Shown here: positions 13,516-38,301 of the stretch, in pieces | Position numbering within the stretch: position 1 is the stretch's first letter | Layout: every line of letters starts with the position of its first letter | DNA from: Vannielia sp. | GTDB taxonomy: Bacteria; Pseudomonadota; Alphaproteobacteria; Rhodobacterales; Rhodobacteraceae | Length of the DNA: 64,000 nt | NCBI RefSeq assembly: GCF_029212645.1 | Contig: NZ_JARGND010000016.1 | Location: 1 to 64,000, forward strand | Direction: 5' to 3' | Notes under the pieces: model-generated | Database searches by the model: none | What the model saw: only the letters and a program-made list of their open reading frames with translations | Told to the model about the DNA's origin: nothing | Translations under genes and position numbers: made by a program

Positions 13516-13555
13516 GGCAGAACGGATGGTGTATGGAACGAGTGAACGCTCGGGA

Positions 13556-13577
13556 CGGGGCCCGCAAAGAGGCCCCG
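13556..13577 (+). promoter_or_regulatory. Second hairpin before the exporter genes
   Basis: Inverted repeat CGGGGCC/GGCCCCG with an 8-base loop lies 30 bases before the TolC-family start. It has no T-run. Together with the preceding hairpin it may reduce read-through from the adhesin gene into the exporter. Confidence 0.4.
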
Positions 13578-13606
13578 CCCGGCACAAGGCAGGGATAGGA
13601 GGCGGC

Positions 13607-14908
13607 ATGAGGCACGCCCGTAAAGGAACCACGTGGCTATCGGTGTGCGCCGTGGCCTTGCTGTCGGGGTGTCTCGACGGAGGCGATGGCGCGGAGGCGA
13701 GCCGTGGGGCGAGTGACCCGGCCAAAGCCACCACGCTCTCCCAGAAAGAAGCGTCAGAAAGTGCAATCATCGCGGACCTGATGCGCCGCGAATCGGTGAT
13801 TGTGCCGGGCAGCCCCTATGCAAAGGTCACCGATGCGGTGCTGGCCGCCAACGCCCGCGCCGCCGAGGCGGATCTCAGGGCCGCACGCCTGCGCGCCGTC
13901 GCGGCTGAAAAGAACTGGCTGCCAACCATTGGCCCCAGGGTTTCGCTTTCATCGCTCGGTGATCTGGTGACCTCGCTGATCGTGGAGCAGGTGCTTTTTG
14001 ACAATGGTCGCAAGAAGGCCGAACGCGTGTTTGCCGCCGCCGATGTGGAATATGCCGCCGTGGTTTTGAGCGAAGACAGCAACGCGCGGGTGCTGACCGC
14101 GCTGTCGCTTTACCTTGCCTCCGAGCAGGGCCGCGCCGAGGCCGAGGTTTCGGCCCGTGCGATGGAAAAGATGAAACATTTCGAGTGGGTCATGCAAAAG
14201 CGTGTTGATGGCGGCGTGTCTGACCGCTCGCAACTGGCCGTGATGAGCCAGAAACGCGCCGAGCTTGAGGCTGATCTGCATGAGGGGGTCGAGACGGCCG
14301 CCGCAGCGCTCGCCGAGTTGAACGCCATGTCCGTGCGCCCGCTGGAAGACCTGCGTGGCCGCACCGGCGTGCGCAACACGGGCAGCAATGTAGAGCCTTT
14401 GGGCGTGCTGAAAGCCGAGGCAGACAAGACCCGGATCGTGGCGCAGGCCAAGATGAATCGCGCAGGCTTTCTTCCCGGTGTCAAAGCCTCGCAACAGTTG
14501 GGCGATGGCGGTGACGGCGCGTTGACAGTGGGGGCTGACAATGGCTTCGGCTTTGGCACGGCGGCCAACCTCAAGGCGCTGAAAGCCGCAGAGGATGGGG
14601 CCGAGCGCGCGGTTTCGCAGGCCCGCGAAGACAGCGCCCGCGCCCTTGCCAGGCTGCGCCAGAACCTGATCGCGCAGGAGCGTCAGGAAGGCGAGCAAAA
14701 GGCTCTCGCCGCTCGCGCAAAAGACAACTTCGAGATTTTCGACCGGCAGTATGAATCGGGCACGCGGCAGGTGCTTGAGGTCGCCAACACCTTTGAAACA
14801 TGGCTCGATGCCGAGCGGGAGCGGGTGCAAACCAGCTACAAGGTTTCCCTGACCCGCCTCAAGATCGCAGCCGCCCTTGGCCAACTGGTAGACGGAAGCC
14901 GGATATGA
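13607..14908 (+). CDS. TolC-family outer membrane lipoprotein of the adhesin exporter
   Basis: 433 residues from the ATG at 13607, which has AGGAGG directly upstream; the track start at 13526 adds an implausible Arg/Gly-rich lead. It opens with a lipoprotein signal peptide (MRHARKGTTWLSVCAVALLSGC, lipobox LSGC). The mature protein is mostly long alpha-helical heptad stretches (DAVLAANARAAEADLRAARLRAVAAEKNWLP, VEQVLFDNGRKKAERVFAA, SARAMEKMKHFEWVMQKRVDGGVSDRSQLAVMSQKRAELEADL), with the two-fold repeated layout of outer membrane efflux proteins. It should be the trimeric outer-membrane channel of the type I system. It overlaps the ABC gene by 4 bases. Confidence 0.82.
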   Translation: MRHARKGTTWLSVCAVALLSGCLDGGDGAEASRGASDPAKATTLSQKEASESAIIADLMRRESVIVPGSPYAKVTDAVLAANARAAEADLRAARLRAVAAEKNWLPTIGPRVSLSSLGDLVTSLIVEQVLFDNGRKKAERVFAAADVEYAAVVLSEDSNARVLTALSLYLASEQGRAEAEVSARAMEKMKHFEWVMQKRVDGGVSDRSQLAVMSQKRAELEADLHEGVETAAAALAELNAMSVRPLEDLRGRTGVRNTGSNVEPLGVLKAEADKTRIVAQAKMNRAGFLPGVKASQQLGDGGDGALTVGADNGFGFGTAANLKALKAAEDGAERAVSQAREDSARALARLRQNLIAQERQEGEQKALAARAKDNFEIFDRQYESGTRQVLEVANTFETWLDAERERVQTSYKVSLTRLKIAAALGQLVDGSRI

Positions 14909-17337
14909 CAACGGATGCGCCCCGCACCTCGCTGAAGCTCAAGATGTCACGCTCCGGCATCCGGGGGGTTGTGAACGATGAAGGCAAGGTCGCCGCGCAG
15001 GGAGAAACGCCCGGTGTCACCGCTGCGCCCCCCCTTGAGAACGCCCCGGTGGCCGAAGCACCCGCGCCCCGCCGCCGCCCGCTTATCAAGCGAGGCCCGG
15101 CGATGGAGCTTCCCACGCCGCCGCAGGCCGTGCCCGACCAACCCGCAAAAATTGCCCCCGCCACGCCGCAGCTAGATGGAACGCTGGCCCCCCGCGCCGC
15201 GCTGGCGGCCACCTATGCCGGGCTGCTGGGCAAAGAGCTTTTGGGCCGCGATCTGGCCGAGGCGATTGCCCGTTCTGGCCAGGGTGCACGCGCGGTAACG
15301 GTGGAAACCCTGTGCAGCGTCCTTGCGGCCAACGGTATGCTCGCCAATATCCGCAAAGTGGCGCGCCCCGGTGCCGATGCCTGGCCTGCCATTGCGCAAA
15401 TGAAATCCGGCCAGCTTGTGCTGGTCCTGTCACAACAGGCCGACCGGCTGGCGGTGTATGACACCACTTGCGCCGACAACCGCGCCTATATCCCGGCGGA
15501 TGAGTTTTGGCCGGTTTATGCCGGGCGGTTGCTCAAGGCCGAGGTCACGCTGGAGCAGGTGGCGCAGAACCACGGCACCGGCGGCAAGAAACCGCATTGG
15601 TTTTGGGGCGAGTTCCCGCGCTTTCGCCGGTTCATCGGTGAAATTGCCGTTGGCTCCTTTGTGGCCAACCTGCTGGCTGTCGCTGTCGCGCTGTTTTCCT
15701 TGCAGGTGTATGATCGGGTGATCCCGCATCAATCGCTCGCCACGCTTTGGGTGCTGGCGCTTGGCGCGGCGCTTGCGATCCTGCTTGAGGGCCTTCTCAA
15801 GCTGGCCCGCTCACGGCTGATGGATGGCGGCGGGCGTGCGATTGAGCTTTCGGTGCAGCGCCTTTTGATGAGCCGCATCGTTGGGATGCGCTCGGACAAG
15901 CGCAGCCACAGCCCCTCGGAACTGTTTGCCACGATGCGTGAATTTGGCTCGGTGCGTGAGTTTTTTACCGCCTCCACCATCGGCACGCTGACCGACCTGC
16001 CCTTCATTGCGCTGTTCCTCCTGCTGGTGAGCCTGATCGCCGGGCCGGTGGTGTGGGTTCTGGTGCTGGGGGGCATCTTGATGGTGCTGCCCGGCTGGCT
16101 GATGCAGCGCCGGATGATGCAACTCACCAAGGAAACCCAAGGGGCCTCTGTCAAGGCGGGCCGGGTGCTGCACGAGGCGATCTATGAGCTTGATACCATC
16201 AAGGCGCAGCGCGGCGAAGACCGGGTGTTGCGCGCCTGGGACGAGCTTAACGCCCTGTCTTCGTTGAAATCTTCCGAGCAGCGGCGGCTGGCGGCTGGGC
16301 TCACGTTCTGGAGTCAGGGCGTGCAGCAGGCGACCTATGTGGGCGCGGTGGTGCTGGGCACTTTCATGGTGTTTGCCGGGGAATTCACCGTTGGCACGAT
16401 CATCGCCGTGGGCATCCTGACAAGCCGAACCCTCGCGCCGCTGTCGCAGCTTGCCGGCACGCTGGCACGCTGGTCCAACGTCAAGAACGCGCTGGCGGGG
16501 CTGGATACCATCGCCGCCGCGCCGCAAGACATGGAAGAAGGTCGCCGCTATCTGCGCCGCGAAAAGTTCAGCGGCACCTATGAGCTGCGCGAGGCACGCT
16601 TCGCCTATGGCGATGACGCGGCCCCGGTGCTCGATATCAACAAGCTGAAGCTGGCTCCGGGGGAGCGGGTGGCGGTGCTTGGGGCCAATGGCTCGGGCAA
16701 ATCCACCTTGCTCAAGATACTCTCGGGGCTTTACGCGCCAACCCAGGGCCGGGTGATGCTGGACGGCGCCGATATGGGCCAGATCGAGCCGACCGATCTG
16801 CGCCGTGGCATCGGCTACCTCTCACAGGATGTGCGGCTGGTGGCGGGCACCCTGCGGGACAACCTCAACATGCACCTGCTGGAGCGCGATGATGACCGCC
16901 TGTTGGAGGCGCTCGATTTTGCCGGGGTGGGGGCGCATGTGCGCGGCCATGCCAAGGGGCTTGATTTTGAAATCCGCGATGGCGGCGAGGGGCTTTCGGT
17001 TGGGCAGCGCCAGTCAATCGGCTGGGCGCGGCTCTGGCTGCAAGACCCCGGCGTGCTGCTGCTCGATGAGCCGACAGCGGCCTTTGACCAGAACCTCGAA
17101 AGCCAGATCGTTGCGCGACTTGGCACATGGCTTGAAGGCCGGGCGGCGGTGATTGCCACCCATCGCCTGCCGATCCTTCAGCTGACCTCCCGCGTGATCG
17201 TGCTGCAAAACGGCCGCCTTGCGGTGGAAGGGCCCCGCGATGAGGTGCTGGGCCACATGAAGAAGGCCGGTTTGGCCACGCCGCAGGCAGGCCCTAGGCC
17301 GGCGGCGGTGAAACAGGCAACCGGAGGCGCGGCATGA
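14905..17337 (+). CDS. Type I secretion ABC transporter, LapB-like
   Basis: 810 residues from the ATG at 14905 (ATGA overlap with the TolC-family gene). The first ~85 residues are Pro/Ala-rich. A C39-like domain follows at about 95-220 (AATYAGLLGKELLGRDLAEAIARSGQ, VETLCSVLAANGM) without the catalytic cysteine segment, so it is a binding rather than a processing domain. Six membrane helices begin at about residue 250. The nucleotide-binding domain has Walker A GANGSGKST, signature LSVGQRQSIGWARL and Walker B VLLLDEPTAAFD. It energises export of the BapA-like adhesin across the inner membrane. The absence of a peptidase site agrees with the lack of a GG-type leader on the adhesin. Confidence 0.9.
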   Translation: MTTDAPRTSLKLKMSRSGIRGVVNDEGKVAAQGETPGVTAAPPLENAPVAEAPAPRRRPLIKRGPAMELPTPPQAVPDQPAKIAPATPQLDGTLAPRAALAATYAGLLGKELLGRDLAEAIARSGQGARAVTVETLCSVLAANGMLANIRKVARPGADAWPAIAQMKSGQLVLVLSQQADRLAVYDTTCADNRAYIPADEFWPVYAGRLLKAEVTLEQVAQNHGTGGKKPHWFWGEFPRFRRFIGEIAVGSFVANLLAVAVALFSLQVYDRVIPHQSLATLWVLALGAALAILLEGLLKLARSRLMDGGGRAIELSVQRLLMSRIVGMRSDKRSHSPSELFATMREFGSVREFFTASTIGTLTDLPFIALFLLLVSLIAGPVVWVLVLGGILMVLPGWLMQRRMMQLTKETQGASVKAGRVLHEAIYELDTIKAQRGEDRVLRAWDELNALSSLKSSEQRRLAAGLTFWSQGVQQATYVGAVVLGTFMVFAGEFTVGTIIAVGILTSRTLAPLSQLAGTLARWSNVKNALAGLDTIAAAPQDMEEGRRYLRREKFSGTYELREARFAYGDDAAPVLDINKLKLAPGERVAVLGANGSGKSTLLKILSGLYAPTQGRVMLDGADMGQIEPTDLRRGIGYLSQDVRLVAGTLRDNLNMHLLERDDDRLLEALDFAGVGAHVRGHAKGLDFEIRDGGEGLSVGQRQSIGWARLWLQDPGVLLLDEPTAAFDQNLESQIVARLGTWLEGRAAVIATHRLPILQLTSRVIVLQNGRLAVEGPRDEVLGHMKKAGLATPQAGPRPAAVKQATGGAA

Positions 17338-18515
17338 CCACCTATGACAGCTCGTTCGATGGCCAGCTCGATCGCCGCCTCAAAAGCCCTTCGATGCTGA
17401 TCTGGACGATCTGGGCCGCGCTGATGATCTTTATTGTCTGGGCCGCGTTTGCCCGCGTGGATGAGATCGTGCGTGCCCCGGCTGAGCTGGTTTCGGCCTC
17501 GCGCCCGCAAATCATCCAAAACCTCGAAGGCGGGATTTTGGGCGAGCTTGCGGTTTCCGAGGGGGATGTGGTGGAGCCGGGCGATGTGCTGGCACGGCTG
17601 CAAGGCACCGGGTTTCAGACCACGGCTGATGACCTTTCGGACAAGATCACCGCAATGGAAATTCGCCGCCTGCGGCTTGAGGCCGAGATGGCCGGGCAGT
17701 TTGACTTTGACGTGCCTGCCAACCTTTCGGCCCGCAACCCCGAGATCGTGGCTTCTGAGCGCGCTCTTCTGAACGCCCGCCAAACCGATTACGTTGCCCG
17801 CTCGGATGGCGCGCGCAACGTGCTGGAACAGGCCGAGCGCGAAAACGAGTTGATGGAAAACCTGCTCGACGAGCGGGTTGTTGCCCTCATCGAAGTCACC
17901 CGCACCCGCAAGGCGGCTTCGGATGCGCGGGCCAAATATGATGAGGTGATCAGCCAGGCCGAGTTGAAGCGCGCCGATGAATATGCCGAAACGCTGCGCG
18001 AGCTGACGACCCTGCGCCAGCAACTCAAGATCAGCGCCGATCAGCTTGCCCGCACCGAGATTACCTCGCCGATGAAAGGCATCGTCAACAGCGTGTCGGT
18101 TTCAACCATCGGCGGCGTTGTGCGCCCCGGTGAAGAGATTTTGCAGATCATTCCGATGGGGGATGATCTGTTTGTCGAGGCGCGGGTGAAGCCAAAAGAC
18201 ATTGCTTCGGTGCGCCCCGGTCAGGAGGCGACGATCAAGCTTTCGGCCTATGATTACACGATCTACGGCTCGTTGAAGGGGGAGGTGAAATTTGTTTCCG
18301 CCGATACCTTCAAGGACGAGCGCAAGCCGGATGGTGACCCGCATTACCGCGTCACGCTGGCGGTGGATCGCAGCGCCATGACAGAGCGCCAGTCCAGCAT
18401 CGAAATTCGCCCCGGTCTGGTGGCGCAGGTTGAGCTGCACACAGGCGAAAAGACGGTGCTGCAATACCTCACCAAACCGCTGACCAAGGCAGGCGAGGCC
18501 TTCCACGAGCCATAG
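17334..18515 (+). CDS. HlyD-family membrane fusion protein (LapC-like)
   Basis: 393 residues. One N-terminal membrane helix (SMLIWTIWAALMIFIVWAAFA, residues about 19-40) is followed by a lipoyl/barrel-sandwich half (ELVSASRPQIIQNLEGGILGELAVSEGDVVEPGDVLARL), a helical hairpin of about 150 residues, the second lipoyl half (ARTEITSPMKGIVNSVSVSTIGGVVRPGEEILQIIPMGDDLFVEARVKPKDIASVRPGQ) and a beta-barrel C-terminus. It bridges the ABC exporter and the TolC-family channel. Its ATG overlaps the ABC stop, with GGAGG upstream. It ends 8 bases from the convergent peroxidase-like gene. Confidence 0.92.
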   Translation: MTTYDSSFDGQLDRRLKSPSMLIWTIWAALMIFIVWAAFARVDEIVRAPAELVSASRPQIIQNLEGGILGELAVSEGDVVEPGDVLARLQGTGFQTTADDLSDKITAMEIRRLRLEAEMAGQFDFDVPANLSARNPEIVASERALLNARQTDYVARSDGARNVLEQAERENELMENLLDERVVALIEVTRTRKAASDARAKYDEVISQAELKRADEYAETLRELTTLRQQLKISADQLARTEITSPMKGIVNSVSVSTIGGVVRPGEEILQIIPMGDDLFVEARVKPKDIASVRPGQEATIKLSAYDYTIYGSLKGEVKFVSADTFKDERKPDGDPHYRVTLAVDRSAMTERQSSIEIRPGLVAQVELHTGEKTVLQYLTKPLTKAGEAFHEP

Positions 18516-18523: not shown

Positions 18524-19525
18524 CTAGGTTTTTGCCGTGAGGTCGAGCACCGATTGCGGCGGGGTCCAGCCTGTGCCTTCACCGGCAAATGGGTCAACCC
18601 GGCTCTTGAGCGCGGCGATCAGCCCCATCACCCCTTCGCCAAACAACCGCCCGCCAAGTGGCCCCAGCCCCGAGCGCCCGGCCATCAGGGAGCGCTCGCG
18701 CATCAGGTAAAACCACAGCGGCGTGCGCTTGTGCAGATCATGCCCCACCACCACCTCGCCGGTGGTGCCACGGTTCAGATCGGTGCGATCAAGGAAAGTC
18801 ATGAAGGGCATGTGGCCCGGCTGCGCGGCGGCGTTGTCGCGCTGGCGCAGCGCGGTGAGCACGCCTTGTGCGGTGGGCACGTTGAGCCAATAGGCCATGG
18901 AGAGGATCTGCGCGGCGGGTTGGCCCTTCGGCGGCGCAGCGGCGAGGAGCGCGTAGGCAAATTCCAGCGGCAGCGGTGGTGCTCCGGCGGCCTCGGCGGC
19001 CATGGCGTAGATCGGCGCACGGCTTTCGCGCAGGGCAGCAAGGGTGTTTGCCTCGCATAGCGCGGGAAGAAGGCGATGGATCAGGAGCCAGTAAAACGCA
19101 TCCGTCGGCGCTTCGCAGGCGGCGAGGGTGGCCAGCATTTGGGCCGCAGCCGGGCTGGGAGCCGGCCGGGCGCGGGGGGCCAAAGTGCCGATCACGCGGA
19201 AATTCTCGGCCACATCGTCGCGGTCGAGCGGGACAAGGGTAGAGGCGTGCAGATCCGGGCGCGGTGTGTCGCGGGCCTTGGCCGCATCACAAAGGCACAG
19301 CAACGTGGGCAGCGCGATCTCTGCCAGCGCAAGGAGAGGCGGGGCGAGGGGCGGGGCGGCTTCATCGGTCTCGTCCATCGCGTTACCAAGGCGCGTCAAC
19401 ACCCGGTTCAGCTCCAGCCGCTCTTCAGCGGCAGCATCGGCAAACAGGTAGCCCGGCCGCAGTTCGCTGGCCTCATTATCCGAGGTTTTGTAATCAAACT
19501 CGCCCGTGTGAAGGCAAAAGCGCAC
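18524..19525 (-). CDS. Divergent animal-heme-peroxidase-like protein, probably catalytically degenerate
   Basis: 333 residues, no signal peptide. The C-terminal part resembles bacterial members of the animal heme peroxidase family: FYWLLIHRLLPALCEANTLAALRESRAPIY corresponds to their YQWIVxxDFLPRI...VL..GRRFY, PLPLEFAYALLAAA to MPVEFSVAAYRFGHS, and RTPLWFYLMRERSLMAGRSGLGPLGGRLFGEGVMGLI to PLWYYILREAE...LGPVGGRIVAEVFIGLL. The proximal histidine expected in the RFGHS position is absent (ALLAAAPPK) and the N-terminal distal-histidine half is missing or unrecognisable. I infer a non-enzymatic or partner protein. It is the last gene of the operon with the subtilase, PAP2-like and regulator genes (81-base gap). 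Assignment is by remembered family pattern only. Confidence 0.5.
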   Translation of the reverse strand: MRFCLHTGEFDYKTSDNEASELRPGYLFADAAAEERLELNRVLTRLGNAMDETDEAAPPLAPPLLALAEIALPTLLCLCDAAKARDTPRPDLHASTLVPLDRDDVAENFRVIGTLAPRARPAPSPAAAQMLATLAACEAPTDAFYWLLIHRLLPALCEANTLAALRESRAPIYAMAAEAAGAPPLPLEFAYALLAAAPPKGQPAAQILSMAYWLNVPTAQGVLTALRQRDNAAAQPGHMPFMTFLDRTDLNRGTTGEVVVGHDLHKRTPLWFYLMRERSLMAGRSGLGPLGGRLFGEGVMGLIAALKSRVDPFAGEGTGWTPPQSVLDLTAKT

Positions 19526-19606
19526 GTTCTCTATCCTTCTTTAATGTTCAGTCTCATGCCCTTCCCCCGGCGCGGAAATCCCATGCGCCGGGGGCGGGAG
19601 CCTTCG

Positions 19607-21802
19607 TTACCTTTGCTCGGCCATCGCCAGCACTTGTGGCGGCAACGCGCGGGTGCCAAGGCGCGCACGCTGGCTGGCGACACCGGCCACCGGCCAGACC
19701 TCGGGGTTGGGTGGGCCGCTGCCCATCAACTCTTCGGCCAGATGGCGGGCAAACTGGGGCGCGGCCACGGAGGAGCCGTTCATCGCCACCCGGCTGCCCG
19801 AGGCTGCCCCTGCGGCGATCACCCCCGCAGCCACTTTTGAGCGATCCGCTTCCGCCGAAGCATCCGGCTGGCGCATCGTGGGCGAACTGGCGGCACCGTA
19901 AGCGGCCGAGGCCCGCTCTTTATGGCCGCCGACGGGTGCATATTTGAGGCTTTCCTTTGGATTGCGTGTCATCGAGGGGCCAATCACGGTGCTGGCCCGG
20001 CCTGTGGCGATGCCGTTCAAGGAGCCGGAGCGGCGCACCACGGACGGGCCGCTATCCTCGTGGTTGATGTCGCCGCCTGCATCCCAGCGCTCATAAAGCG
20101 GGTCATCAAAATAGCTTTGGCGGCCTTGCCTGCGGTAACCAAGCGGCGCGTCATCACGCTGAATCCAGGCTTCTATCTTTTCGCCCTCGGAGATGCGCGC
20201 CTTCAGCTCTACCAGCCAAAGCCCCGAGGGCGCAGGCTCTTGCTTGGAGGCGGCGGGCATGGAGGACGGGGTGAGCGCGATCAGCACGCGCTTCTTGCGG
20301 GCAATCCCATCGCTGGCGGGGTTGCCGCGCTGTCGATCGAGCGAGATACGCCCGATCACTGAGGCAGGGTCGCCCGCCGGGTGCATCACCAGCGCCTGGC
20401 TGGGGCCAAGGCCCTGCACCCGGATCGCGCTACCGCCCGGCGGGGTGATCCACAGCTCAAGGCCCGAGGCATCACGGGGCATCCAGATTTCGAGAAAATT
20501 CGGGCTTTCATCGCCCGGCTGAACCCGCCACGGCAAGGTGAGCGCGGTTTTATCGCCGCGCCCGGAGGCTGGCCCCGCAATCTCGGCGTGGCCGCGTGCC
20601 AGCACCCGGTTGCCCGAGGGCAGAATCACCTCGACCACCGCGCGCGTGGGCTTGGTTGGGAACTGCTCTGCCAGCCGGTCAAGATGCGCCTGCACCAGCG
20701 TATCAATCGCCCGTTCCAGAAAGTGCAGCCCGTTGTGCGGCCCGCCCGAAAGCGCATAGGAAAAGTTGATCACCACCGGGATCGGGAAGCCCTCGACCTG
20801 TGACATGAGGAAGGCCCGTTCAAGGATATGCGCCACCCCGGCCATCACGAAAGGGGAGACATAGGCGCCAGAGGTATTGAGCGTGACCGTCGCAGGAAGC
20901 TGCACGGTGAGCAGCCGCAGATCATCCGGCCCATCCCCCGCCGCGAGCGAGCACACATGGGTTCCGTGAGAAAGCCGTTGCGCCACCGTGTGCACGCCCA
21001 TCCGGCGAAAATCAGCGAGCCCGAGCGCGGTGAGCTTTTCGTGCTCGGGGGCGGGGCCTGAAGCGAGGGCCGCATCGATCTCGGGCTTGGTCAGCTCGCG
21101 GCCAAAGGGCACCGTGGTGGTGCCAGTGGGCGCGGCGGCGTCTTGCACCCAGGCAAAATCGAGCCGGGTGTTCTTGGCGCTGTCCTGAAAGGCCTCATGC
21201 AGCGGATTGATCCCGTCATCGACAATGCCCACGATCACAGCGGTGCTCTCGGAAAGACCTTGTGCGGTATAGCCCACCTGCTGCGCGGCCCGCTCGGGAA
21301 GGGAAGATTTGCGCAGGGGCGCGCGGTAGTGGAGGGCGTCGCGCAGGCTGAGGGCGGCGTTATCCTCGGCCTCCTCGCGGCTGGCCTCGGTTTCTTCCTC
21401 GGCGGCGGAGCGCGGCGGCGCCTCCTCAGCGGCGGCGGTGGTGGCCTCTTCGGCGGAGGGGGCGAGGGCGGAAAAGCTGTTGTCTGCCGGATCAAACGGC
21501 GCGATGGATTGCACGGCGGCCTGCACCAGACCATCCGGGCCATCGGGCGCAGACGCGGTGGTGAGGGCGACCACCGGCGCGGCCCCCTCGGCCTTGAACG
21601 GCTCTGGCAGGTCTTCGATCCGGCCCGCCTGAAACGTTTCGACCGTGAACATGTAGCGAAAGTCATCCGGGTCTTCGATGTCTTCCATGCGGGTGAGATC
21701 AAAGTCGAGCGCATAGCGCAGCGACCAGGCCGAATAGGGATCAAACATCGCGGTGACGCCGTTTGGATCATCCTCCGGGGTGAATGCGTAACTCTTTGTC
21801 AT
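19607..21802 (-). CDS. S8 (subtilisin) family serine peptidase without signal peptide
   Basis: 731 residues. The catalytic triad is visible: Asp in VIVGIVDDGINPLHEAF (Asp195), His in RLSHGTHVCSLAAGD, and Ser in MNGSSVAAPQFARHLAEEL near the C-terminus. In the Asp motif the usual Thr/Ser after Asp is replaced by Asp. The first ~180 residues hold a globular acidic part and a Glu/Ala-rich low-complexity stretch (about 117-150), not a recognisable I9 propeptide. A ~150-residue insert between His and Ser regions is rich in beta strands. No Sec/Tat signal is seen, so it acts in the cytoplasm or leaves by another route. It lies 39 bases after the PAP2-like gene in the same operon. Family assignment is firm; the substrate is unknown. 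Confidence 0.85.
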   Translation of the reverse strand: MTKSYAFTPEDDPNGVTAMFDPYSAWSLRYALDFDLTRMEDIEDPDDFRYMFTVETFQAGRIEDLPEPFKAEGAAPVVALTTASAPDGPDGLVQAAVQSIAPFDPADNSFSALAPSAEEATTAAAEEAPPRSAAEEETEASREEAEDNAALSLRDALHYRAPLRKSSLPERAAQQVGYTAQGLSESTAVIVGIVDDGINPLHEAFQDSAKNTRLDFAWVQDAAAPTGTTTVPFGRELTKPEIDAALASGPAPEHEKLTALGLADFRRMGVHTVAQRLSHGTHVCSLAAGDGPDDLRLLTVQLPATVTLNTSGAYVSPFVMAGVAHILERAFLMSQVEGFPIPVVINFSYALSGGPHNGLHFLERAIDTLVQAHLDRLAEQFPTKPTRAVVEVILPSGNRVLARGHAEIAGPASGRGDKTALTLPWRVQPGDESPNFLEIWMPRDASGLELWITPPGGSAIRVQGLGPSQALVMHPAGDPASVIGRISLDRQRGNPASDGIARKKRVLIALTPSSMPAASKQEPAPSGLWLVELKARISEGEKIEAWIQRDDAPLGYRRQGRQSYFDDPLYERWDAGGDINHEDSGPSVVRRSGSLNGIATGRASTVIGPSMTRNPKESLKYAPVGGHKERASAAYGAASSPTMRQPDASAEADRSKVAAGVIAAGAASGSRVAMNGSSVAAPQFARHLAEELMGSGPPNPEVWPVAGVASQRARLGTRALPPQVLAMAEQR

Positions 21803-21841
21803 GGCTTACCTTTCTGGGCTGAGGCGAGGGAATGGTGCAGA

Positions 21842-22999
21842 TCAGATATCTGCCCATTCCTCCCGTGCCTTGCCCCAGAGCCAGTTGAACAGCGGAGCCG
21901 GGGTGACGCCTTCAACCGCATTCCCACGGGTGATGAGGGTGCCAAATTCCTTTGGCGTGTCGGTGGCCAGATCATAGACCTTGGAGAGGTGGAAATCCTC
22001 GTCGTCCACGCCGGGGCCGTTGAACGCGGTTTCCTTCACTTCCGCCCCGGTTGCCCCCGCCCGTTGTGCGAGATAATCCGCCAGCGCAAGGCCAAGCGCC
22101 GCCCCTGCAAAGCTGTCTGCCGGGAAGTGAACGCCTGCCACCGTGCGGTTGACCGCGATCCTTGCGGCCTGGGCCAGCAGCATTTCGCTTTGCTTTGGAA
22201 GCTGCGCCTTTCCCTTCATCAGATGCACCAGCGTTTGGCCAACGATATGGGCTTCGGTGGCGTGGCCCGAGGGCAAAGCGCCGTGACCGGGCGTTTGGAT
22301 CATGGGCATAAGCTGGCCCGAGTAGCGGTCAGGGCGCAGGCACGCGAGGCGGTGCTTGCACTGGAGCACCACGTTGGAGGCGATCGCCTGCACCAGCGCG
22401 ATCAGCTCGATGGTGTATTTGTGCCTGCCCGCACGCAGCCCGAGGATCGGCTGGAAAAACTCGGTCGGGTAGCCGATCTGGTTGAGGATTTCGCCCGCCC
22501 GGTCAGGCCGCAGATCAGCGTAATTATGAACCAGAGCGGTTTGCGCGAGGAAATCATCGGGCGACGGCCGGGTGAGTTTGGCCAGCCGGTGATACTGTGC
22601 GCCCGGCGCATTATCCGAATCTCCGCCCGTGTTTTCAAGGGAATAGACGGCGGCGCTTTCACCAGACCCTGTCACCGTGATATTGCCCATCAACTCGCCG
22701 CCGATCATGGTGACGCGCTCAACGGCGCCCCATTCCTCAAGGGTGGCAATGGCATTTGCGGGCATGGCTGTGGGCGCGGCGGCAATGGCCTCATAGGTCC
22801 CGACAATGCCATCCCGCGCGGTGAGGATGGCCTGCGACAGAGAGCCCGAATACCCCGCGCCAACGCCCGATACGCCGCTCACGCCCGACACACCGCTCAC
22901 CCCTGAAACGCCGCTCACCCCTGAAACCCCCGAAACGCCGCTCACCCCTGAAACGCCGCTTACGCCGGAAACACCCGACACACTTGATGCAATAGACAT
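21842..22999 (-). CDS. PAP2 / vanadium-dependent haloperoxidase-fold protein with Val-Ser-Gly repeat N-terminus
   Basis: 385 residues. The protein opens MSIASS followed by 13 Val-Ser-Gly triplets and then VGAGYSG. The rest is the acid phosphatase/haloperoxidase fold: motif 1 KHRLACLRP (K-x6-RP), motif 2 LPSGHAT (PSGH), motif 3 NRTVAGVHFPAD (fits SRx5Hx3D with Ser replaced by Asn). All anion-binding residues are therefore kept. The segment order and the QYHRLAKLTRPSPDDFLAQ lead resemble vanadium-dependent haloperoxidase-related proteins rather than membrane lipid phosphatases, and no membrane helices are evident. It could be a haloperoxidase or a phosphatase. It starts 25 bases after the regulator stop codon. 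Confidence 0.8.
   Translation of the reverse strand: MSIASSVSGVSGVSGVSGVSGVSGVSGVSGVSGVSGVSGVSGVSGVGAGYSGSLSQAILTARDGIVGTYEAIAAAPTAMPANAIATLEEWGAVERVTMIGGELMGNITVTGSGESAAVYSLENTGGDSDNAPGAQYHRLAKLTRPSPDDFLAQTALVHNYADLRPDRAGEILNQIGYPTEFFQPILGLRAGRHKYTIELIALVQAIASNVVLQCKHRLACLRPDRYSGQLMPMIQTPGHGALPSGHATEAHIVGQTLVHLMKGKAQLPKQSEMLLAQAARIAVNRTVAGVHFPADSFAGAALGLALADYLAQRAGATGAEVKETAFNGPGVDDEDFHLSKVYDLATDTPKEFGTLITRGNAVEGVTPAPLFNWLWGKAREEWADI
22865..22981 (-). repeat. 13 x 9-bp tandem repeat encoding (Val-Ser-Gly)13
   Basis: Thirteen consecutive nonamers on the minus strand, each coding V-S-G. Two main types (GTTTCAGGG and GTGAGCGGC) alternate over most of the tract, so an 18-base super-unit is visible. 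Copy-number changes would keep the reading frame and alter only tail length. Confidence 0.95.
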
Positions 23000-23024
23000 G
23001 CTTTAATCCTTTGTTCTAATAGCT

Positions 23025-24731
23025 TTAATTTGGAACCCCTGCCTCCCGCAGGGCCTTTGCCCAGTCCCGCCCTGACTCAAATTCGGCGGCTGGGTGGTCT
23101 CGTAAATACTGGCGGATATTAAAGCCCGGATCAGCCCGCATAAGGGTTTCGGCGCTGTCGCGCGCCTCTTCCATCCGGTCGAGAAAATAGAGCGCCACAA
23201 CCTTGGCGCGCAGCGTTGAGGTGTGGCGACGGTTGGCCCGCATTGAACGATCCGCCATTTCCAGCGCGCCCTGATAATCGCCCGCTGTGAGCCTCGCGGC
23301 GGCGGCGAGCGCATCAAAATAGTAGGAATGCGGATCAAGCGGTGAAAGGGCGCGGGCGCGGTTGGTGTAGTTTACCGCGCCTTCCCCATCGTCCGTGAAG
23401 GCATGAAGCACGCCCTTGAGCAACCATGCCATCGCGTTGTTCGGATCAAGCTCAATGGCGTCGTCAAAGCGACGCATGGCAATGTCATGGCGGCGCAGCA
23501 GGTTGTTGTTGACCAGCCCATCCATGGTGAGCGCGAAGGAGTTATCCGGCTCGATATCCAGCGCCCGCGCGGTGTGGTCGCGGGCTGTGCGGGTGTCATC
23601 ATCGTGGCGCGAAGACCAGCCCTGAACGACCGAAAGTACATGCCATTTGCCCAACCAGCCATGCAACACGGCGCTGTCAGGCACGCGGGTGATCACCTCT
23701 TCGAGGTAGGTCTTCGACTTGGCAAAACTCTGCACCGAAAGCCGGTGCATGAGGGTGATGGATGACATCAAAATCGCGTGGCTATCCACATCGGGCAATG
23801 GCGCGGAACCGGCCAGATCCAGCGAGGTATCCATCACCGCGCGGCCAATTTCACCCGCCAGGTTAAGCACCAGATCATCACCGCCTTTGAGAAACTCTAG
23901 CGTGGAGCCGGAAAGCTCGCGCGTCCAGCCGATGCGGCCGGTGGCGGTGTCGATGAAATCGGCGTTGAGGATGATTTTATCACCGGTTGTCCGATAGTTA
24001 CCGCACACGACATAATCGGCGTCCAACGACTCGCGGATTTCATCAAGCGCGATGGTGCGGGCATCCATCCGGCGGCTGGAAAGGTGCGAAATGACGTCAA
24101 GAAGATGGCTGCGGGACAGGGTGCGCGACAGTTCTTCCGAGATCATATCACCCAGCTGCGCCGGGCCTTGATAACCACGGGCGGTGGCAAATGGCAGGAT
24201 CGCAATGGAGGGGTGCAGGTGCCCCCCGCGTGACAGGATTTCCTGTGCCATACGGCCCGGACGGCCACGCGCCACGGCTGAAAGCAACGTGCGGTTTGAG
24301 CGCCGTTGGACAGTGATCCACTCCTCAAAACCGGCTTCGGCGATCTCGGTGCCTTCGAGGAAATCGCCGTCTTCCAGCATGCCGGTGATGCGTACCCTGG
24401 TCAGCCGGATTTGTACTTCGGTATTGTTGACCTCGAAGAGGGCGGCGAAGTGATCTCCAAACAGGGTGCGCAGATCGGTCAGCGCACGGCGAAGGCTGGC
24501 GCGGCCATGTTCGTGCCCGGAGCGGCCCCATAGCATGTCTTGCAGCCAGGCGCGGGTGCGCGCGCCCTCGGGGGCGGTCGCGAGCATGGCGAGGAGCGCG
24601 CGGATTTTGGTGGAGCGCACCTTGATCTCGTCGCCGTCTTCCCACGAAAGAGCAAACACACCGAAAAGACGGATGCAAAGCACGCCGTGATGCGCACCTT
24701 GATCGCCTTCGATATCATCGTTGCGGTTCAT
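23025..24731 (-). CDS. Winged-helix (SARP/OmpR-type) regulator with TolB-like and TPR domains
   Basis: 568 residues from the ATG at 24731 (MNRNDDIEGD), which has GGGGGA about 6 bases upstream; in-frame starts at 24743 and 24764 are possible. Residues about 20-120 form an OmpR/SARP-like winged helix (VLCIRLFGVFALSWEDG, VRSTKIRALLAMLATAPEG, RTRAWLQDMLWG, ASLRRALTDLRTLFG). A TolB/CyaA-associated domain follows (HPSIAILPFATARGYQGPAQLGDMISEELSRTLSR...DADYVVCGNYRTTGDKIILNADFID), and then TPR repeats to the end. There is no receiver domain. Such regulators sense a signal through the C-terminal half and usually control adjacent genes. It is the first gene of the operon and is divergent from the glycerate kinase gene. 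Confidence 0.82.
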   Translation of the reverse strand: MNRNDDIEGDQGAHHGVLCIRLFGVFALSWEDGDEIKVRSTKIRALLAMLATAPEGARTRAWLQDMLWGRSGHEHGRASLRRALTDLRTLFGDHFAALFEVNNTEVQIRLTRVRITGMLEDGDFLEGTEIAEAGFEEWITVQRRSNRTLLSAVARGRPGRMAQEILSRGGHLHPSIAILPFATARGYQGPAQLGDMISEELSRTLSRSHLLDVISHLSSRRMDARTIALDEIRESLDADYVVCGNYRTTGDKIILNADFIDTATGRIGWTRELSGSTLEFLKGGDDLVLNLAGEIGRAVMDTSLDLAGSAPLPDVDSHAILMSSITLMHRLSVQSFAKSKTYLEEVITRVPDSAVLHGWLGKWHVLSVVQGWSSRHDDDTRTARDHTARALDIEPDNSFALTMDGLVNNNLLRRHDIAMRRFDDAIELDPNNAMAWLLKGVLHAFTDDGEGAVNYTNRARALSPLDPHSYYFDALAAAARLTAGDYQGALEMADRSMRANRRHTSTLRAKVVALYFLDRMEEARDSAETLMRADPGFNIRQYLRDHPAAEFESGRDWAKALREAGVPN

Positions 24732-26715: not shown

Positions 26716-27177
26716 TCAATAGGTGGATTTGTACGCCTCTTTGGCGACCTTCTCGAAGCCCTTGCGGATGATCATTTGCTTAACCATCGACTGGGTGATC
26801 GACTTGGCGATGGCGCTGCCGCCCATTTTGACGCCGCGCGAGAAGTAGACCGCATAGATGCCATCCATCACCAGCGAAGTGGCGAATTGGGCGAACTGCT
26901 TGTTGGCCATTTCGATGATCGACATATCGCGCATGAAGATGCGGTCATCGTATTTTGCGGCCATGCAAACCTGGGTGATGGCCATGCCGTCTACGCTGAG
27001 TGGGGACAGCTTGGAGACCAGCCACTCGCCCATGCTGACATCGCCTGAACGATCAGCATCGGCGCCTTCATAGAAGCTGACGATGGTGACGACATCATTG
27101 CCGACAAAGCCGACGGCGCCGATGTCTTTTGTGCTGTCCAGCGGGTCCTGGATTGCGATCCATTCGATTGAGGGCAT
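26716..27177 (-). CDS. Unassigned protein at the end of the T6SS half-operon
   Basis: 153 residues from the ATG at 27177 (MPSIEWIAIQDPLDS), with GAAAGGAATAAAC just upstream; the track start at 27207 lacks this. I do not recognise the family. The first half looks beta-rich (EWIAIQDPLDSTKDIGAVGFVGNDVVTIVSFYEG, then a DADRSGDVS loop resembling a Ca-binding loop), the second half is helical and ends in a basic, amphipathic tail (SRGVKMGGSAIAKSITQSMVKQMIIRKGFEKVAKEAYKSTY). No signal peptide. It follows clpV by 108 bases with a hairpin between and a terminator after, so it is probably co-transcribed with clpV. A secreted cargo, a sheath/ClpV accessory factor, or an immunity-type protein are all possible. 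Confidence 0.75.
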   Translation of the reverse strand: MPSIEWIAIQDPLDSTKDIGAVGFVGNDVVTIVSFYEGADADRSGDVSMGEWLVSKLSPLSVDGMAITQVCMAAKYDDRIFMRDMSIIEMANKQFAQFATSLVMDGIYAVYFSRGVKMGGSAIAKSITQSMVKQMIIRKGFEKVAKEAYKSTY

Positions 27178-27243
27178 GTTTATTCCTTTCCAAAGTATTG
27201 GTTTCAATAGGGATACGCCGAAAATTGACGCTTGGGGTCGTGT

Positions 27244-27276
27244 GGCCCGCCCCGTTCAAAATGCGGGGGGCGGGCC
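27244..27276 (-). promoter_or_regulatory. Strong hairpin between clpV and the 153-residue gene
   Basis: Perfect 10-base inverted repeat GGCCCGCCCC/GGGGCGGGCC with a 13-base loop, starting 10 bases after the clpV stop. It is not followed by a T-run on the minus strand. It could protect the clpV mRNA end or lower expression of the distal gene. Confidence 0.55.
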
Positions 27277-27285
27277 GGGGATGGA

Positions 27286-30084
27286 TCAGGCGAGATCGTA
27301 GGCGAAATTGCCGTCTTTCACGCCTACTTTCACCGATTTCAGCTCATCGCCGTTCACCGCCTTTTCGAGGATGGCGCGCGACAGATCGGGCAGGATGGAA
27401 TTGGTGATGATGTTGTCGATCATGCGGCCACCCGAATCCGGGTCGTTGCACTGGGATACGATGTGGTCGATCACCTCGTCGGACAGGTCCATGCTGGCGT
27501 TGTGGTTTTGCTTCACGCGTTTGACGATGGAACCGAGCTTGAGCTTGGTGATCATGGCCAGCACCTCGCTGCCGAGCGGGTAGTAGGGGATGGTGACGAT
27601 GCGGCCCAGCAGAGCGGGCGGGAAGACCTCCAGCAGGGAGGGGCGCAGCGCGTCGGCCAGCGCTTCCGGGTCTGGGTGGGCCTCGCCCTGGGCGCACATA
27701 TCCATGATGACATCGGTGCCCGCGTTGGAGGTGAGCAGGATCAGGCAGTTCTTGAAATCAATCCCGCGGCCGGAGCCGTCTTCCATGTGGCCCTTGTCGA
27801 AGACCTGGAAGAAGAGTTCGTGCACATCGGGGTGGGCCTTTTCGACCTCATCAAGCAGCACCACCGAGTAGGGCTTGCGGCGCACGGCCTCGGTGAGGCG
27901 CCCGCCTTCGCCGTAGCCCACATAGCCCGGAGGGGCGCCTTTGAGCAGGGCGACGGTGTGGGCCTCCTGATACTCGGACATGGCGATGGTGATGACGTTT
28001 TGCTCGCCGCCATAGATCGCCTCGGCCAGCGCCAGGGCGGTTTCGGTTTTGCCCACGCCGGAGGGACCGGCGAGCATGAAGACACCGATGGGTTTGCCGG
28101 GGTTGTCGAGCTTGGCGGTGGAGGTTTCGATGCGCTTGGCGATCATCTCCAGCCCGTGATCCTGCCCGACGACGCGCTCCTTGAGGCGGTCTGCGAGGGT
28201 GAGGATGGCCTGCACCTCATCGGCGACCATGCGGCCCACGGGGATGCCTGTCCAATCGCCGACAACGCTAGCGACGGCCTGATAATCGACGTGGGAGTAG
28301 ATCATCCGCTCGTCGGCGTCGCGCTCCTCAAGCTCGGCGACCTTGGTGGCGAGCGCCTCGCGCAGCTTTTCGGCGTCCTCGGCGGAGGCGGGGGCTGCGT
28401 GCTCTTCGGGGAGGTCTGCGGGCGCTTCGGTGGGAGCCTCTTCGGCGGGGGCCTCATCGGCGGTTTCCTCGGCCTCATCCTGGGCTTCGGCGGCTTCCTC
28501 GGGGGTGGGGGGCACTTCGCCCTCTTCGTCAACCGGGAGCTTGCCGCTGCCTTCGCCGGTGAGCTTGGCGCGCAGTTCGAGCACCTCCTGCACGATGGAT
28601 TTCTCTTCCTCGTACTTGGCTATGGTGGCGGCCAGATCATCCTCTAGCTTGCTGCGGTCGGCCTTTAGCTCGTCGATCCGGTCCTGATTGGTTTCTCCCA
28701 GCTCGGCCTGGCGCTCCTTGCCCAGCAGTTCGGCATCGACCGAGGCGATGGCGGCCTTGAGGTCGGCCACATGGGCGGGGGTGGTGCTTTGGGAGATCGC
28801 CACGCGGGCCGAAGCCGTATCGAGCAGGGACACGGCCTTGTCGGGCAGCTGGCGCGCGGGGATATAGCGCGAGGAAAGCTGGACGGCGGCGACGATGGCC
28901 TCATCGGAGATGCGGACCTTATGGTGCGCTTCCATCGGGGCCATGATGCCGCGCAGCATGTAGCAGGCCTTCTCGATATCCGGCTCATCAATGGTGATGG
29001 GCTGGAAGCGGCGGGTGAGGGCCGGGTCTTTCTCGAAGTACTTTTGGTACTCCATCCAGGTTGTTGCGCCGATGGTGCGCAGGGTGCCACGGGCCAGCGC
29101 GGGCTTCATCAGGTTGGCCGCATCGCCGGTGCCGGCAGCGCCGCCGGCGCCGATCAGGGTGTGGGTTTCATCAATGAACAGGATGATGGGCGTGGCGGAG
29201 CCTTGCACCTCGTCGATGAGCTGGCGCAGGCGCTGCTCGAACTCGCCCTTCATCGAGGCGCCGGCTTGCATCAGGCCCATATCGAGCGAGAGCAAGCGGT
29301 TGCCTTGAAGCTGTGGCGGCACATCACCGGCGGCGAGGCGCTGGGCGAAGCCTTCGACCACGGCGGTTTTGCCGACCCCGGCCTCACCGGTGAGGATGGG
29401 GTTGTTCTGACGGCGGCGCATCAGCACGTCGATGATATTGCGGATTTCGTCGTCACGGCCCACGATCGGGTCCATCTTGCCGGAAGCGGCTTGCGCGGTG
29501 AGGTCAACGCAGTAGCGATCCAGCGCGGTGGTGCCGGTGGGCGAGCCTTCGCCGCCGCCGCCCCCGCCGGAGGACAGGCCGGAGCCATCCATCGGGCGCT
29601 GGTCTTCCTCATCGGAGGCGGACCAGACGGAGCGGGCATCATTGACGAGGGTTTCCACATTGAGCCCGGACAGGGTGGGCGAACATTCCTTGAGCGTTTC
29701 CGCCAGCTTGCGGGATTTCAGCGCCGCCACCAAAAGGTGGCCGGTGCGGATGGACGGCTCGGCAAAGAGCAGCGTGGCGTAGTGCCAGCCGCGATCCAGC
29801 AGATCAATCACCGAGGTCGAGAAGCCCGGCATCTCGGTGACGTTCTTGCGATAATCGTCGATGGTTTTTTGCAACTCAGCCAGCACTTTGGAGCGATCAA
29901 TGCCGTAGTTGATGAGGGAGACGGAAATGTCAGACTTTTCGTTGGCCACCATGTGATAGAACCAGTGCGAAAGCTCGACGTTGCGGTTTCCTTCGCTGCG
30001 CGCGTGGCGGTGGGCCTTCATGAAGGCGTCGTAGCCGGAGCTGCCTAGCTTTCCGGCGACTGTTTCGAGGCTTACATCTGACAT
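27286..30084 (-). CDS. tssH: T6SS ATPase ClpV (TssH)
   Basis: 932 residues, the AAA+ unfoldase that disassembles contracted TssBC sheaths in the cytoplasm. The N domain (about 1-160) is of the Clp-N type ([26 protein letters not shown]). NBD1 has Walker A GEAGVGKT at 233-240 and Walker [14 protein letters not shown]2 has Walker A GPSGVGKT at 673-680 and Walker [12 protein letters not shown]. The middle domain carries a long Glu/Ala/Pro-rich insert ([28 protein letters not shown]...), which is unusually acidic and probably disordered. The gene begins 60 bases after the tssG stop and is followed by the 153-residue gene. Confidence 0.96.
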
Positions 30085-30144
30085 CGTCGTTCGTCCCTGT
30101 TTTAATATGCTCGGGGGACGGCCCCCCGGTTTGAATATCTGCCG

Positions 30145-31188
30145 CTAACCCGCCTGATGCAGGCTGAAGTGGGCGTCTGAAACATAATCGTCGTCTTTTG
30201 TATCTGCCTTGTCGGCCTTCACCGGCGTCCAGCAAGTATAGCCAAGGCGCCCCTGCTTGCCGATTTGCGCCGAAGGGCAGGCGCGGCGGGGCAGGGCGAG
30301 TTTAACATCAAAATCAATTTGCTCCCCCAGATAAAATCTTACCATATCCGCCAGCCTGGCAAACATTTTGCCGCCGGGCAGGAAGCTTTTGTAATCATCA
30401 AGGCCTTCGGTGCGGATCTCGATGGTGGCCTTGTCGTTGATCGAATAAACGCGCCGCCCGGCATAGGTGTTGCGGCCAAGCTCGGCGCCCGAGCGGCCCA
30501 TGCGGGTGAGATCGCTTTCCTCGAAATCAAGCCAGATGCCCTGGCGTTCGATGATATGCACATCGACCCCGAGCACGCCCTCAAGCACCTGCTGGAGCCG
30601 CTTGGCCGATTTGACCCGTCCCGCCATGACCCCGGCAAAGGGGAGCTTGGCGATATCCGGCACGCGATCACGGTCCTGGTAGGGTTTGGTGCCGATGCCG
30701 ATGAAACTGCCGAGCCAATCGGAAAAGCGATCCTCATCGGGGCGGTCAAACTGGGCAATCGGGCGGGCATCGGCCCAGACGCGGTGGAACAGTTGCAAGA
30801 AGCGGGTGGCGAAGATATCGGCAAAGCGGATGAAGGCATCATCCCCGGCGCGCATCCAGCGATAGGCCTCGATGGAGGTGAGCAGCGGCAGCGGGCCTTG
30901 CGGGCCGAAATAGCCCAGAAAGCGGGTGCGTAGGCGGGGGACTTCGCCCTCGCGGACCTCAAACGCCTGCACGTTGGAGGCGGGAAAATCGAGGAACGGG
31001 TCTTGCCCGACCGAAACGATCTCCTGGCTGAGCACCTGGCTCTTGCCGATGCGGGGCTTGTCGGGGAACATCCGCTCCATCTCGCGCAGGAGCGCGTGGA
31101 TATTGAAGCGGTAAGGCTCGGCCTCCAGCATCTCGCGGCGCGAGCGGGCCTTTTCGAGCGGCAGGTGCTTTTGCTCGGCCTCGCTCAT
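30145..31188 (-). CDS. tssG: T6SS baseplate subunit TssG
   Basis: 347 residues of the ImpH/VasB family. Diagnostic stretches: FNIHALLREMERMFPDKPRIGKS, VPRLRTRFLGYFGPQGPLPLLTSIEAYRW, DIFATRFLQLFHRVWADARP and the C-terminal GKQGRLGYTCWTPVK. TssG forms the wedge with TssE, TssF and TssK in the baseplate. The ATG overlaps the tssF stop by 4 bases, so the two are translationally coupled, in line with their fixed 2:1 complex. Confidence 0.95.
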   Translation of the reverse strand: MSEAEQKHLPLEKARSRREMLEAEPYRFNIHALLREMERMFPDKPRIGKSQVLSQEIVSVGQDPFLDFPASNVQAFEVREGEVPRLRTRFLGYFGPQGPLPLLTSIEAYRWMRAGDDAFIRFADIFATRFLQLFHRVWADARPIAQFDRPDEDRFSDWLGSFIGIGTKPYQDRDRVPDIAKLPFAGVMAGRVKSAKRLQQVLEGVLGVDVHIIERQGIWLDFEESDLTRMGRSGAELGRNTYAGRRVYSINDKATIEIRTEGLDDYKSFLPGGKMFARLADMVRFYLGEQIDFDVKLALPRRACPSAQIGKQGRLGYTCWTPVKADKADTKDDDYVSDAHFSLHQAG

Positions 31189-33146: not shown

Positions 33147-33153
33147 CGGCGTC

Positions 33154-33708
33154 TCATTTGTCCGAGATGTTGGTGAATTGCATCTTGCCGGACCCTACGT
33201 CGATTTCTGCGACAAATTCCAAAGGAATATCAACAGGTTTGCAAGCCATTTCGGCGTGGATTTCAAACATCAGCTTTTGCTGTTCCTGATTTTCCGCCTC
33301 AACCAGCTTTACATCCATGCTCTCGGGCACAAAGCGCGGTTCGTTGTTGATGAGCGCGCGGGCGAGTTGCTTGGGCACCTTTTGCACCTTGATATCCTCA
33401 GAGGTGAGGTTGGAAAGATCGACCACGCCATAATTGAGGATGGATTTGCGCACATAGTCGAGATCATCCACATCCATGCAGGCATCGAGGTTGATGGTGT
33501 TAGCAAGCTGCACGAGGTCAATCTCGAGATTGCGCTTCAATTCGGCCTCATTGGCGCCACGGCGGCGGTGGGCGGTGCGCTCGGTGAGCACGCGCTGGCC
33601 GTCTTGGTAGGAGGTGCTGTCGATCTTAGCATCGCGGGCACGGTGCGCCTCGCGGAAGGCATACATCACCGGAACCTGAAGCTGCTGATTTTTCGCCGGT
33701 TTCGCCAT
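33154..33708 (-). CDS. tssE: T6SS baseplate subunit TssE (gp25-like)
   Basis: 184 residues from the ATG at 33708 (MAKPAKNQQLQVPVMYAFREAHRARD), which has AGGGAGGG just upstream; the track ORF extends 57 codons into the intergenic region without support. The core is the gp25/lysozyme-like fold: SYQDGQRVLTERTAHRRRGANEAELKRNLEIDLVQLANTINLD, VRKSILNYGVVDLSNLTSEDI, then LARALINNEPRFVPESMDVKLVEA. It joins the sheath base to the TssFG wedge. Confidence 0.9.
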   Translation of the reverse strand: MAKPAKNQQLQVPVMYAFREAHRARDAKIDSTSYQDGQRVLTERTAHRRRGANEAELKRNLEIDLVQLANTINLDACMDVDDLDYVRKSILNYGVVDLSNLTSEDIKVQKVPKQLARALINNEPRFVPESMDVKLVEAENQEQQKLMFEIHAEMACKPVDIPLEFVAEIDVGSGKMQFTNISDK

Positions 33709-34067
33709 GGTGCCCTCCCTTGCTAAGCGTGCCGTGTGTTCGCTGACGTTACGATAACGGGCAGAGGGCGCGGCGTGAAGGGGCGGCGGGAGCGGGATGG
33801 GTGAAATTGCGGCATGGATGTCCTCTTGAAATGGGGAGGAAGTCTTTGGAATGGAAGAAAAAACGAGGGTAGCGGGCAATTAAGAGAGCGCGGCGTGATG
33901 CCATTCTGGGCAATGAGCGCCGAAATCGCGACGCTGCCGGGGAAGTAAAGGCTTTAGGGCGCCGCAAGTTTGGCGGGGCCTAAAAGCAAACGGGGCACAT
34001 TGCTGCGCCCCGTTCGATTTCTGCGAAAGCTGGCCTGGCGCGAGGGCCGGGCTGCTTTGAGGGCCTA
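33709..34067 (-). other. Intergenic region between hcp and tssE
   Basis: 359 bases. The hcp terminator occupies 33982-34014. The remaining 270 bases contain no convincing ORF; since the terminator should stop hcp transcripts, a separate promoter for the tssEFG-clpV unit is expected here, but no clear consensus was seen. Confidence 0.5.
33982..34014 (-). terminator. Intrinsic terminator after hcp
   Basis: On the minus strand AACGGGGC...GCCCCGTT is a perfect 8-base stem with a 10-base loop, followed by TGCTTTT. It lies about 50 bases past the hcp stop. Confidence 0.8.
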
Positions 34068-34556: not shown

Positions 34557-34708
34557 TAGTTGATCTCCTTTTGGTACCTGGTTTTAGCAATGATTTGCTT
34601 TTTAAAAATAAAGACCAGTAATATCCGGTCCCTACTGAGATGGGGAGTATGCCTCCCCGTTGCAAGGCCCACACACAAAGATTTTTAAAAAATTGTGATG
34701 GAACCGAA

Positions 34709-34733
34709 CGGGCCGCTGCGAAACAGCGGCCCG
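34709..34733 (-). promoter_or_regulatory. Stem-loop between tssC and hcp
   Basis: Perfect 10-base stem CGGGCCGCTG/CAGCGGCCCG with a 5-base loop, 12 bases after the tssC stop on the minus strand. The T-rich stretch (AATTTTTT) is about 15 bases further on, so it is either a weak terminator or a processing/stabilising element separating tssBC from hcp. Confidence 0.6.
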
Positions 34734-34745
34734 AACCCTTGAAAA

Positions 34746-36230: not shown

Positions 36231-36295
36231 GTGTCTGGTCCCTGTCTGTTGTCTGGTCGAGGCTTGGAGTTTGGAAAATGCGAGGGCTGGTTGGA

Positions 36296-36835: not shown

Positions 36836-36920
36836 CTGGAAATCTCCCTAATAATTATGCAATTGAAGCCACGCAGGCTTCGATTTGTCAAATGTTTTGC
36901 CCGGTTGGGCGGCGCGTGAC

Positions 36921-38274: not shown

Positions 38275-38301
38275 TGGCAATCCGAATAAAGAGAGTGTGT
38301 C

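Follow-up and report, generated by a model that had tools for sequence, protein, structure and literature searches.

RRNPP regulators are peptide-responsive HTH-TPR proteins, with a gene for a small secreted pre-peptide alongside. The regulator of the locus described here (REG) resembles them in joining a DNA-binding domain to TPR and in lying beside a possible peptide source and a protease. However, REG has a winged helix and not the RRNPP HTH, its middle domain is TolB/FlgO-like, and no RRNPP-style gene for a small secreted pre-peptide was found among the conserved neighbours. In the operons of bacterial gasdermins (bGSDM), the proteases are mostly caspase-like, and one system adds a further protease of the trypsin-like kind (PMC9079055). 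The likeness lies in an effector gene beside its own protease, and in the gasdermin case cleavage switches the effector on. The module, on the contrary, has an effector of the PAP2/haloperoxidase fold with a repeat tail and a constant WH-TPR regulator, and no gasdermin domain was matched by Pfam in its proteins.

Among the clostridial Csp proteases, the jelly-roll and the retained prodomain are distinctive features of CspB (PMC3567191). The Csp proteins are subtilases with an inserted jelly-roll domain and share their overall fold with the subtilase of the locus (SUB). CspB activates a hydrolase zymogen (the CspB/pro-SleC pair), whereas the presumed target of SUB is an array-tailed PAP2 protein and not a cortex hydrolase; moreover, the hosts of SUB are non-sporulating proteobacteria, and its triad is intact, unlike that of CspC. 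With the vanadium-dependent haloperoxidases, the array protein shares the catalytic K/R/PSGH/R/H set and a residue of the bromoperoxidase His411 type, but its domain is much shorter, the overall similarity is low and it carries an N-terminal array. A comparison of the PADLOC-DB 2.0 defence models with the four proteins of the locus gave a sole match at chance level (E=0.06). No description matching the module was found in NCBIfam, PADLOC or the open-access literature, in agreement with the original prediction, which knew of no described system with this gene set. The folds are known singly; their combination and the behaviour of the array appear to be of no recognised kind.

The window, the whole stretch of 64,000 nucleotides of Vannielia sp. 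that was analysed, carries four tandem minus-strand genes (18524-24731; Table 1), separated by 25, 39 and 81 bases according to the ORFs. Placement and spacing are those originally described, and the folds had been named correctly as well: TPR and FlgO/TolB-like regions in REG, a PAP2 domain (Pfam, E=9e-11) and a Peptidase_S8 domain (Pfam, E=2e-5). REG consists of a winged-helix N-terminus, for which the Trans_reg_C match is weak (Pfam), a FlgO/TolB-like middle and a C-terminal TPR at residues ~330-560 (Pfam/NCBIfam); in a PDB profile search, the C-terminus matches TPR superhelices. A scan for promoters and terminators gave chance-level results only.

Table 1. Features of the module in the window.
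Feature	Position	Strand	Description
REG	24731(ATG)-23025	minus	568 aa; first gene of putative operon
Array-tailed PAP2/vanadium-haloperoxidase-fold protein	22999-21842	minus	385 aa
N-terminal array (VSG)x13	22865-22981	minus	Protein repeat perfect; 9 different units at the DNA level
PAP2 active-site block	22115..22357	minus	K215-x6-R222-P, H239, P243-S-G-H246, N-R285-x5-H291-x3-D295
SUB, S8 subtilase	21802-19607	minus	731 aa
Accessory degenerate heme-peroxidase relative (PF03098)	19525-18524	minus	333 aa

Genes for type I secretion (for a TolC-like protein, an ABC exporter and an HlyD-like protein) lie at 13526-18515, convergent with the module, and such genes are also found near the module in two relatives of the same genus (L075 and L076). 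On the other side, a T6SS-like minus-strand cluster (26716-43728) includes a ClpV-like ATPase (27286-30084) with an adjoining Hcp-like gene, and a 3261-aa ORF (44202-53987) adjoins the cluster. A tie of the module to the neighbouring T6SS or T1SS was rejected, as other genera carry the module away from both.

The gene-neighbourhood comparison proposed originally shows that the set recurs in distant genomes, and the refuting outcome named with it did not occur. About 40 close PAP2 relatives are present in 150 Rhodobacteraceae genomes; all of the 40 wide loci have REG next to PAP2, and 38 have SUB there as well, the two without it lying on short contigs. A scan of named genomes yielded at least 529 PAP2 relatives, and the neighbourhoods of the best 80 were read: REG is adjacent in 80/80 and SUB in 79/80, the exception ending with its contig. 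These best 80 loci belong to alpha-, beta- and gammaproteobacteria, with hosts among the Rhodobacterales, Kiloniella and other Rhodospirillales, Bradyrhizobium, Microvirga, Tardiphaga, Rhizobium, Hydrogenophaga, Polaromonas and a Chromatiales member. The few matches in MAGs labelled Planctomycetaceae or Anaerolineae may be misbinned. Linkage persists while gene orientations vary: 93 loci are collinear, 18 have a divergent REG, and 12 have a divergent REG and a convergent SUB. Across 150 Rhodobacteraceae genera, PAP2 is present in 36 of the 37 genomes with SUB (Fisher P ~3e-31, phylogeny ignored). Gene calls of the relatives were made in this analysis, and the P-values, here and below, ignore phylogeny unless stated.

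Beyond REG, PAP2 and a protease, no conserved neighbour was found. The original proposal of a four-gene unit thus stands for three genes: REG, array-PAP2 and SUB form the core, and the peroxidase gene, which is beside only 9/126 loci, is accessory. A phage origin was also rejected, the viral contigs having given only two weak matches. In Phaeobacter strains, the module is located on plasmids, some of them typed as conjugative. On plasmid pGal_C110 of Phaeobacter gallaeciensis, four convergent small genes, two of them paralogues, adjoin the module (L155:11171-13343); they are conserved in Phaeobacter and Parasedimentitalea. Plasmid pW43B of Parasedimentitalea marina carries a frameshifted, apparently decayed array-PAP2 copy in which the NSF array is retained (L159:6046-7030).

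No transmembrane segment or signal peptide was seen in the array-tailed PAP2 protein. Its PAP2 domain is modelled mostly with pLDDT>90 (AlphaFold2), and the array is the one part of the protein without a confident model. The K-x6-R-P, PSGH and R-x5-H-x3-D motifs are invariant or nearly so (26 and 50 sequences), and H239 is invariant and aligns with His411 of the A. nodosum bromoperoxidase (PDB 1qi9). The fold test by Foldseek does not place the haloperoxidases closest overall: the nearest folds are class A acid phosphatases, and the vanadium iodo/chloroperoxidases are weaker matches (E 5e-3 or worse). The protein could accordingly be read as a soluble PAP2 phosphatase, acting on phosphomonoesters or lipid diphosphates, in a module controlling phosphate or envelope-lipid turnover. 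The acid phosphatases are also the best profile matches, and weak NCBIfam matches to the undecaprenyl-diphosphatase SepP point the same way. This reading concerns the output and is compatible with any reading of the array. It is nevertheless considered rather improbable: the invariant bromoperoxidase-type His, at -7 of the PSGH His, is missing from the aligned acid phosphatase, and genes for bromoperoxidases and heme peroxidases adjoin the module.

These accessory genes include the fourth gene of the locus. Alone, it has no Pfam match; it aligns to full-length homologues that match An_peroxidase (PF03098), and three relatives (L026, L063 and L080) reach the PF03098 cut-off. By eye, the distal and proximal heme-ligand His motifs of these three are absent from it. 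On sequence grounds, the protein belongs with the animal-type heme peroxidases as a shortened and degenerate relative, which bears out the original description as degenerate and heme-peroxidase-like; syntenic orthologues are present in L075 and L076. The 9/126 count refers to Csp-type loci, and at least three of the other loci also have a heme peroxidase gene beside them. A vanadium bromoperoxidase relative is found beside 7-8 loci, the one of L039 matching solved bromoperoxidases with E=3e-100. In one clade, the bromoperoxidase neighbour looks degenerate by eye, as the window's heme peroxidase does; five bromoperoxidase-like neighbours (L042, L043, L045, L049 and L050) have, by eye, lost the active-site motifs. 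The presence of two unrelated haloperoxidase families at the same place suggests an oxidant-chemistry output. The output of the module would most likely be halide/peroxide oxidation, sometimes reinforced by the neighbouring second haloperoxidase. An oxidative fold combined with a protease under dedicated control, as proposed originally, fits both these neighbours and the interchangeable proteases described below.

The most striking feature of the module is the VSG array. Its 13 perfect tripeptides are the only (VSG)3-coding stretch of the genome assembly, and on its own the array is disordered in the single-chain AlphaFold2 model (pLDDT<50). An N-terminal array is present in 121/121 examined homologues of the Csp-type module; as an array of this kind recurs at the corresponding position in every homologue examined, the one of the window is not a chance occurrence. 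Repeats are perfect in 118 of the 121, with a 3-mer unit in 109 and a 4-mer in 9. The three irregular arrays are degenerate and NTRS-like (L053), six-residue (L105) or SGGI x6 in the correct frame (L148). Arrays have a median of 9 copies and start a median of 6 residues past the start codon. Altogether, 70 different units are used (VSG, GGV, NSF, WEN, TAM, GHE, QTQ, etc.). A collagen-like role would fit the glycine-bearing units alone and was rejected, since many units have no glycine. An apparent further partner gene with VSG repeats in the genus of the window (G542) proved to be an artefact, read antisense to the PET-repeat linker of a protein kinase. Near another module, an unrelated 886-aa protein contains long DPV/VDP tripeptide repeats (L048:14241-14990).

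Copies in one array share the same amino acids, while their synonymous differences are near saturation (median pS 0.81), and adjacent units shun identical codons in 83/99 arrays (P=1.5e-11). The array is hence kept at the protein level and is non-repetitive at the DNA level. Tandem repeats are generally prone to slippage, and the array could in principle be a non-specific disordered spacer, or an expression or stability leader, repetitive through slippage only. The variation between 5 and 7 NSF copies across Phaeobacter, with a constant unit, would agree with this. Copies that are identical in protein and diverse in DNA, with adjacent units avoiding the same codons, are however the opposite of fresh slippage, and an array is found in every homologue examined; this explanation is regarded as extremely improbable.

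Between related species, the unit itself changes. In the genus of the window, SGV (VSG in another register) is found in three species, TGV in two and AGV in two, and one of the two TGV species has a single AGV copy; the silent patterns are too diverged in this genus to trace the change. In Microvirga, the silent codons of a GGV and a GGI array (L114 vs. L133) match in order, each copy with its counterpart (P=0.0007; this is the lowest value among 16 V/I pairs and becomes ~0.01 after correction). The sole V left in the GGI array is encoded by GTG, for which the one-step change leads to Met and not to Ile. Re-expansion of the array is disfavoured as the cause of the Microvirga V/I change. The simplest reading of these sequences is that units are replaced copy by copy through point mutation, under selection for sameness. 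An arbitrary unit, identical across copies and changed in concert, implies strong selection for sameness itself. Perfect repeats of an arbitrary unit with concerted replacement by point mutation, in the absence of DNA duplication, are very unusual.

Sameness could also result from homotypic assembly, in which the arrays of many molecules would pack into a filament or condensate that the protease disassembles. Self-matching would force identical copies, and the unit would drift between species when no outside partner is involved. The composition is consistent with this: charged residues make up 6% of the 70 units vs. 20% of the protein body, Pro and Cys together 0.5% vs. 7%, and the units are rich in G/A/S/N/Q/T. 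The disorder of the single-chain model also agrees. Two properties of the relatives with other proteases, set out in the following, argue against such an assembly, and it is held to be decidedly unlikely.

SUB looks cytoplasmic and has an N-terminal region of ~180 residues before the catalytic Asp. Its triad (D195/H279/S678) is invariant in 43 sequences. The fold is Csp-like, with an inserted beta domain (jelly-roll), and the Foldseek match to CspB reaches E=7e-21. In weaker PAP2 relatives, the Csp-like SUB is absent, REG is kept, and an array is present wherever the sequence includes the N-terminus. A short S8 subtilase adjoins the PAP2 relative in 12 loci, where the arrays are (SR)n, (NR)n, (NK)n or (NRG)n. 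A papain-type C1 protease adjoins six others, with NGGM, GGLN, DGAV or HSGS arrays; of these loci, L222 is cut by a contig end, and L219, L256 and L257 were assigned by alignment or family profile, with weak Pfam matches or none. One locus (L258) has an adjoining peptidase A4 (glutamic) and a TGN array. In L226, PAP2 and S8 are fused in one polypeptide that carries a (TH)n array, with a trypsin-like gene adjoining. The strongest indication that the function involves proteolysis is this replacement by non-homologous proteases. Two loci (L215 and L216), in which the S8 subtilase is present only as a divergent neighbour of REG, count against protease control. Another locus contains a single ORF made of the winged-helix start of REG, the N-terminal PAP2 motif and most of SUB (L223:5598-7541), probably a deletion remnant of the module.

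The repeat length tracks the protease type: the period is 3 (109) or 4 (9) in Csp-like S8 loci, 2 (11) or 3 (1), all basic, in short-S8 loci, and 4 in 5/5 papain-type loci, an association behind which there are few independent events, as the protease type is confounded with the PAP2 clade. This tracking speaks against the assembly of arrays among themselves, and the strongly basic arrays (SR, NR, NK) of the short-S8 loci would repel each other. The idea of a tripeptidyl peptidase is weakened by the arrays of 2- and 4-residue units.

The locus is best described as an undescribed, protease-controlled module of a haloperoxidase-like enzyme, with the array as a multi-copy protease site, control by REG, probable sensing through the TPR and an oxidant as output, a reading held with evenly balanced confidence. 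Gene linkage, intact catalytic residues, the properties of the array, protease exchange and the accessory haloperoxidases are established from the sequences. The dedicated adjoining protease, once active, would cut the array or its junction, each identical unit being an equivalent recognition site. The cut would switch, release or relocate the PAP2 enzyme. REG would control the operon and probably sense the array, intact or cut, through the groove of its TPR, and the enzyme would oxidise halide/peroxide, at times together with the second haloperoxidase next door. We infer the cleavage of the array by the protease, its reading by the TPR, the chemistry and the physiological role.

The repeat unit of the array was found in no REG (118 loci) and in no SUB (115 loci). 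Once PAP2-body similarity is removed, loci with similar units also tend to have similar REG and SUB proteins, and this correlation is highest in the TPR windows (partial Mantel tests, which have inflated false-positive rates). A per-column covariation test did not single out the TPR, and clade effects were evident. Reading of the array by the REG TPR is therefore a lead only. Tentatively, and with well under even confidence, the module may be of a new regulatory kind, in which the array on the haloperoxidase-like enzyme, homogeneous within a species and hypervariable between species, is a common code that the dedicated TPR regulator reads and an exchangeable protease cuts. Array and readers would then co-evolve, giving every lineage a private 'peptide language'.

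Alternatively, the protease could chop the array into identical short peptides that are the ligand of the REG TPR, an intracellular peptide signal. Identical units would make all fragments one ligand, and any protease class would suffice. The WH and TPR regulator, constant while proteases are exchanged, fits this, as does unit similarity that follows the TPR and not the PAP2 body. It is judged unlikely all the same: no export signal or import system is present, the fused PAP2 enzyme is left without explanation, units of 2 to 4 residues are short for TPR ligands, and the column-level covariation did not single out the TPR. Under the preferred reading, that of a protease-controlled enzyme, the array would serve as the protease site.

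The significance of the array, the concerted change of its unit between species and the exchange of proteases go beyond the original prediction. The module is widespread in Rhodobacterales, Hyphomicrobiales and Burkholderiales. The combination of an array on an enzyme, a constant regulator and several catalytic types of protease suggests an undescribed logic of protease control.
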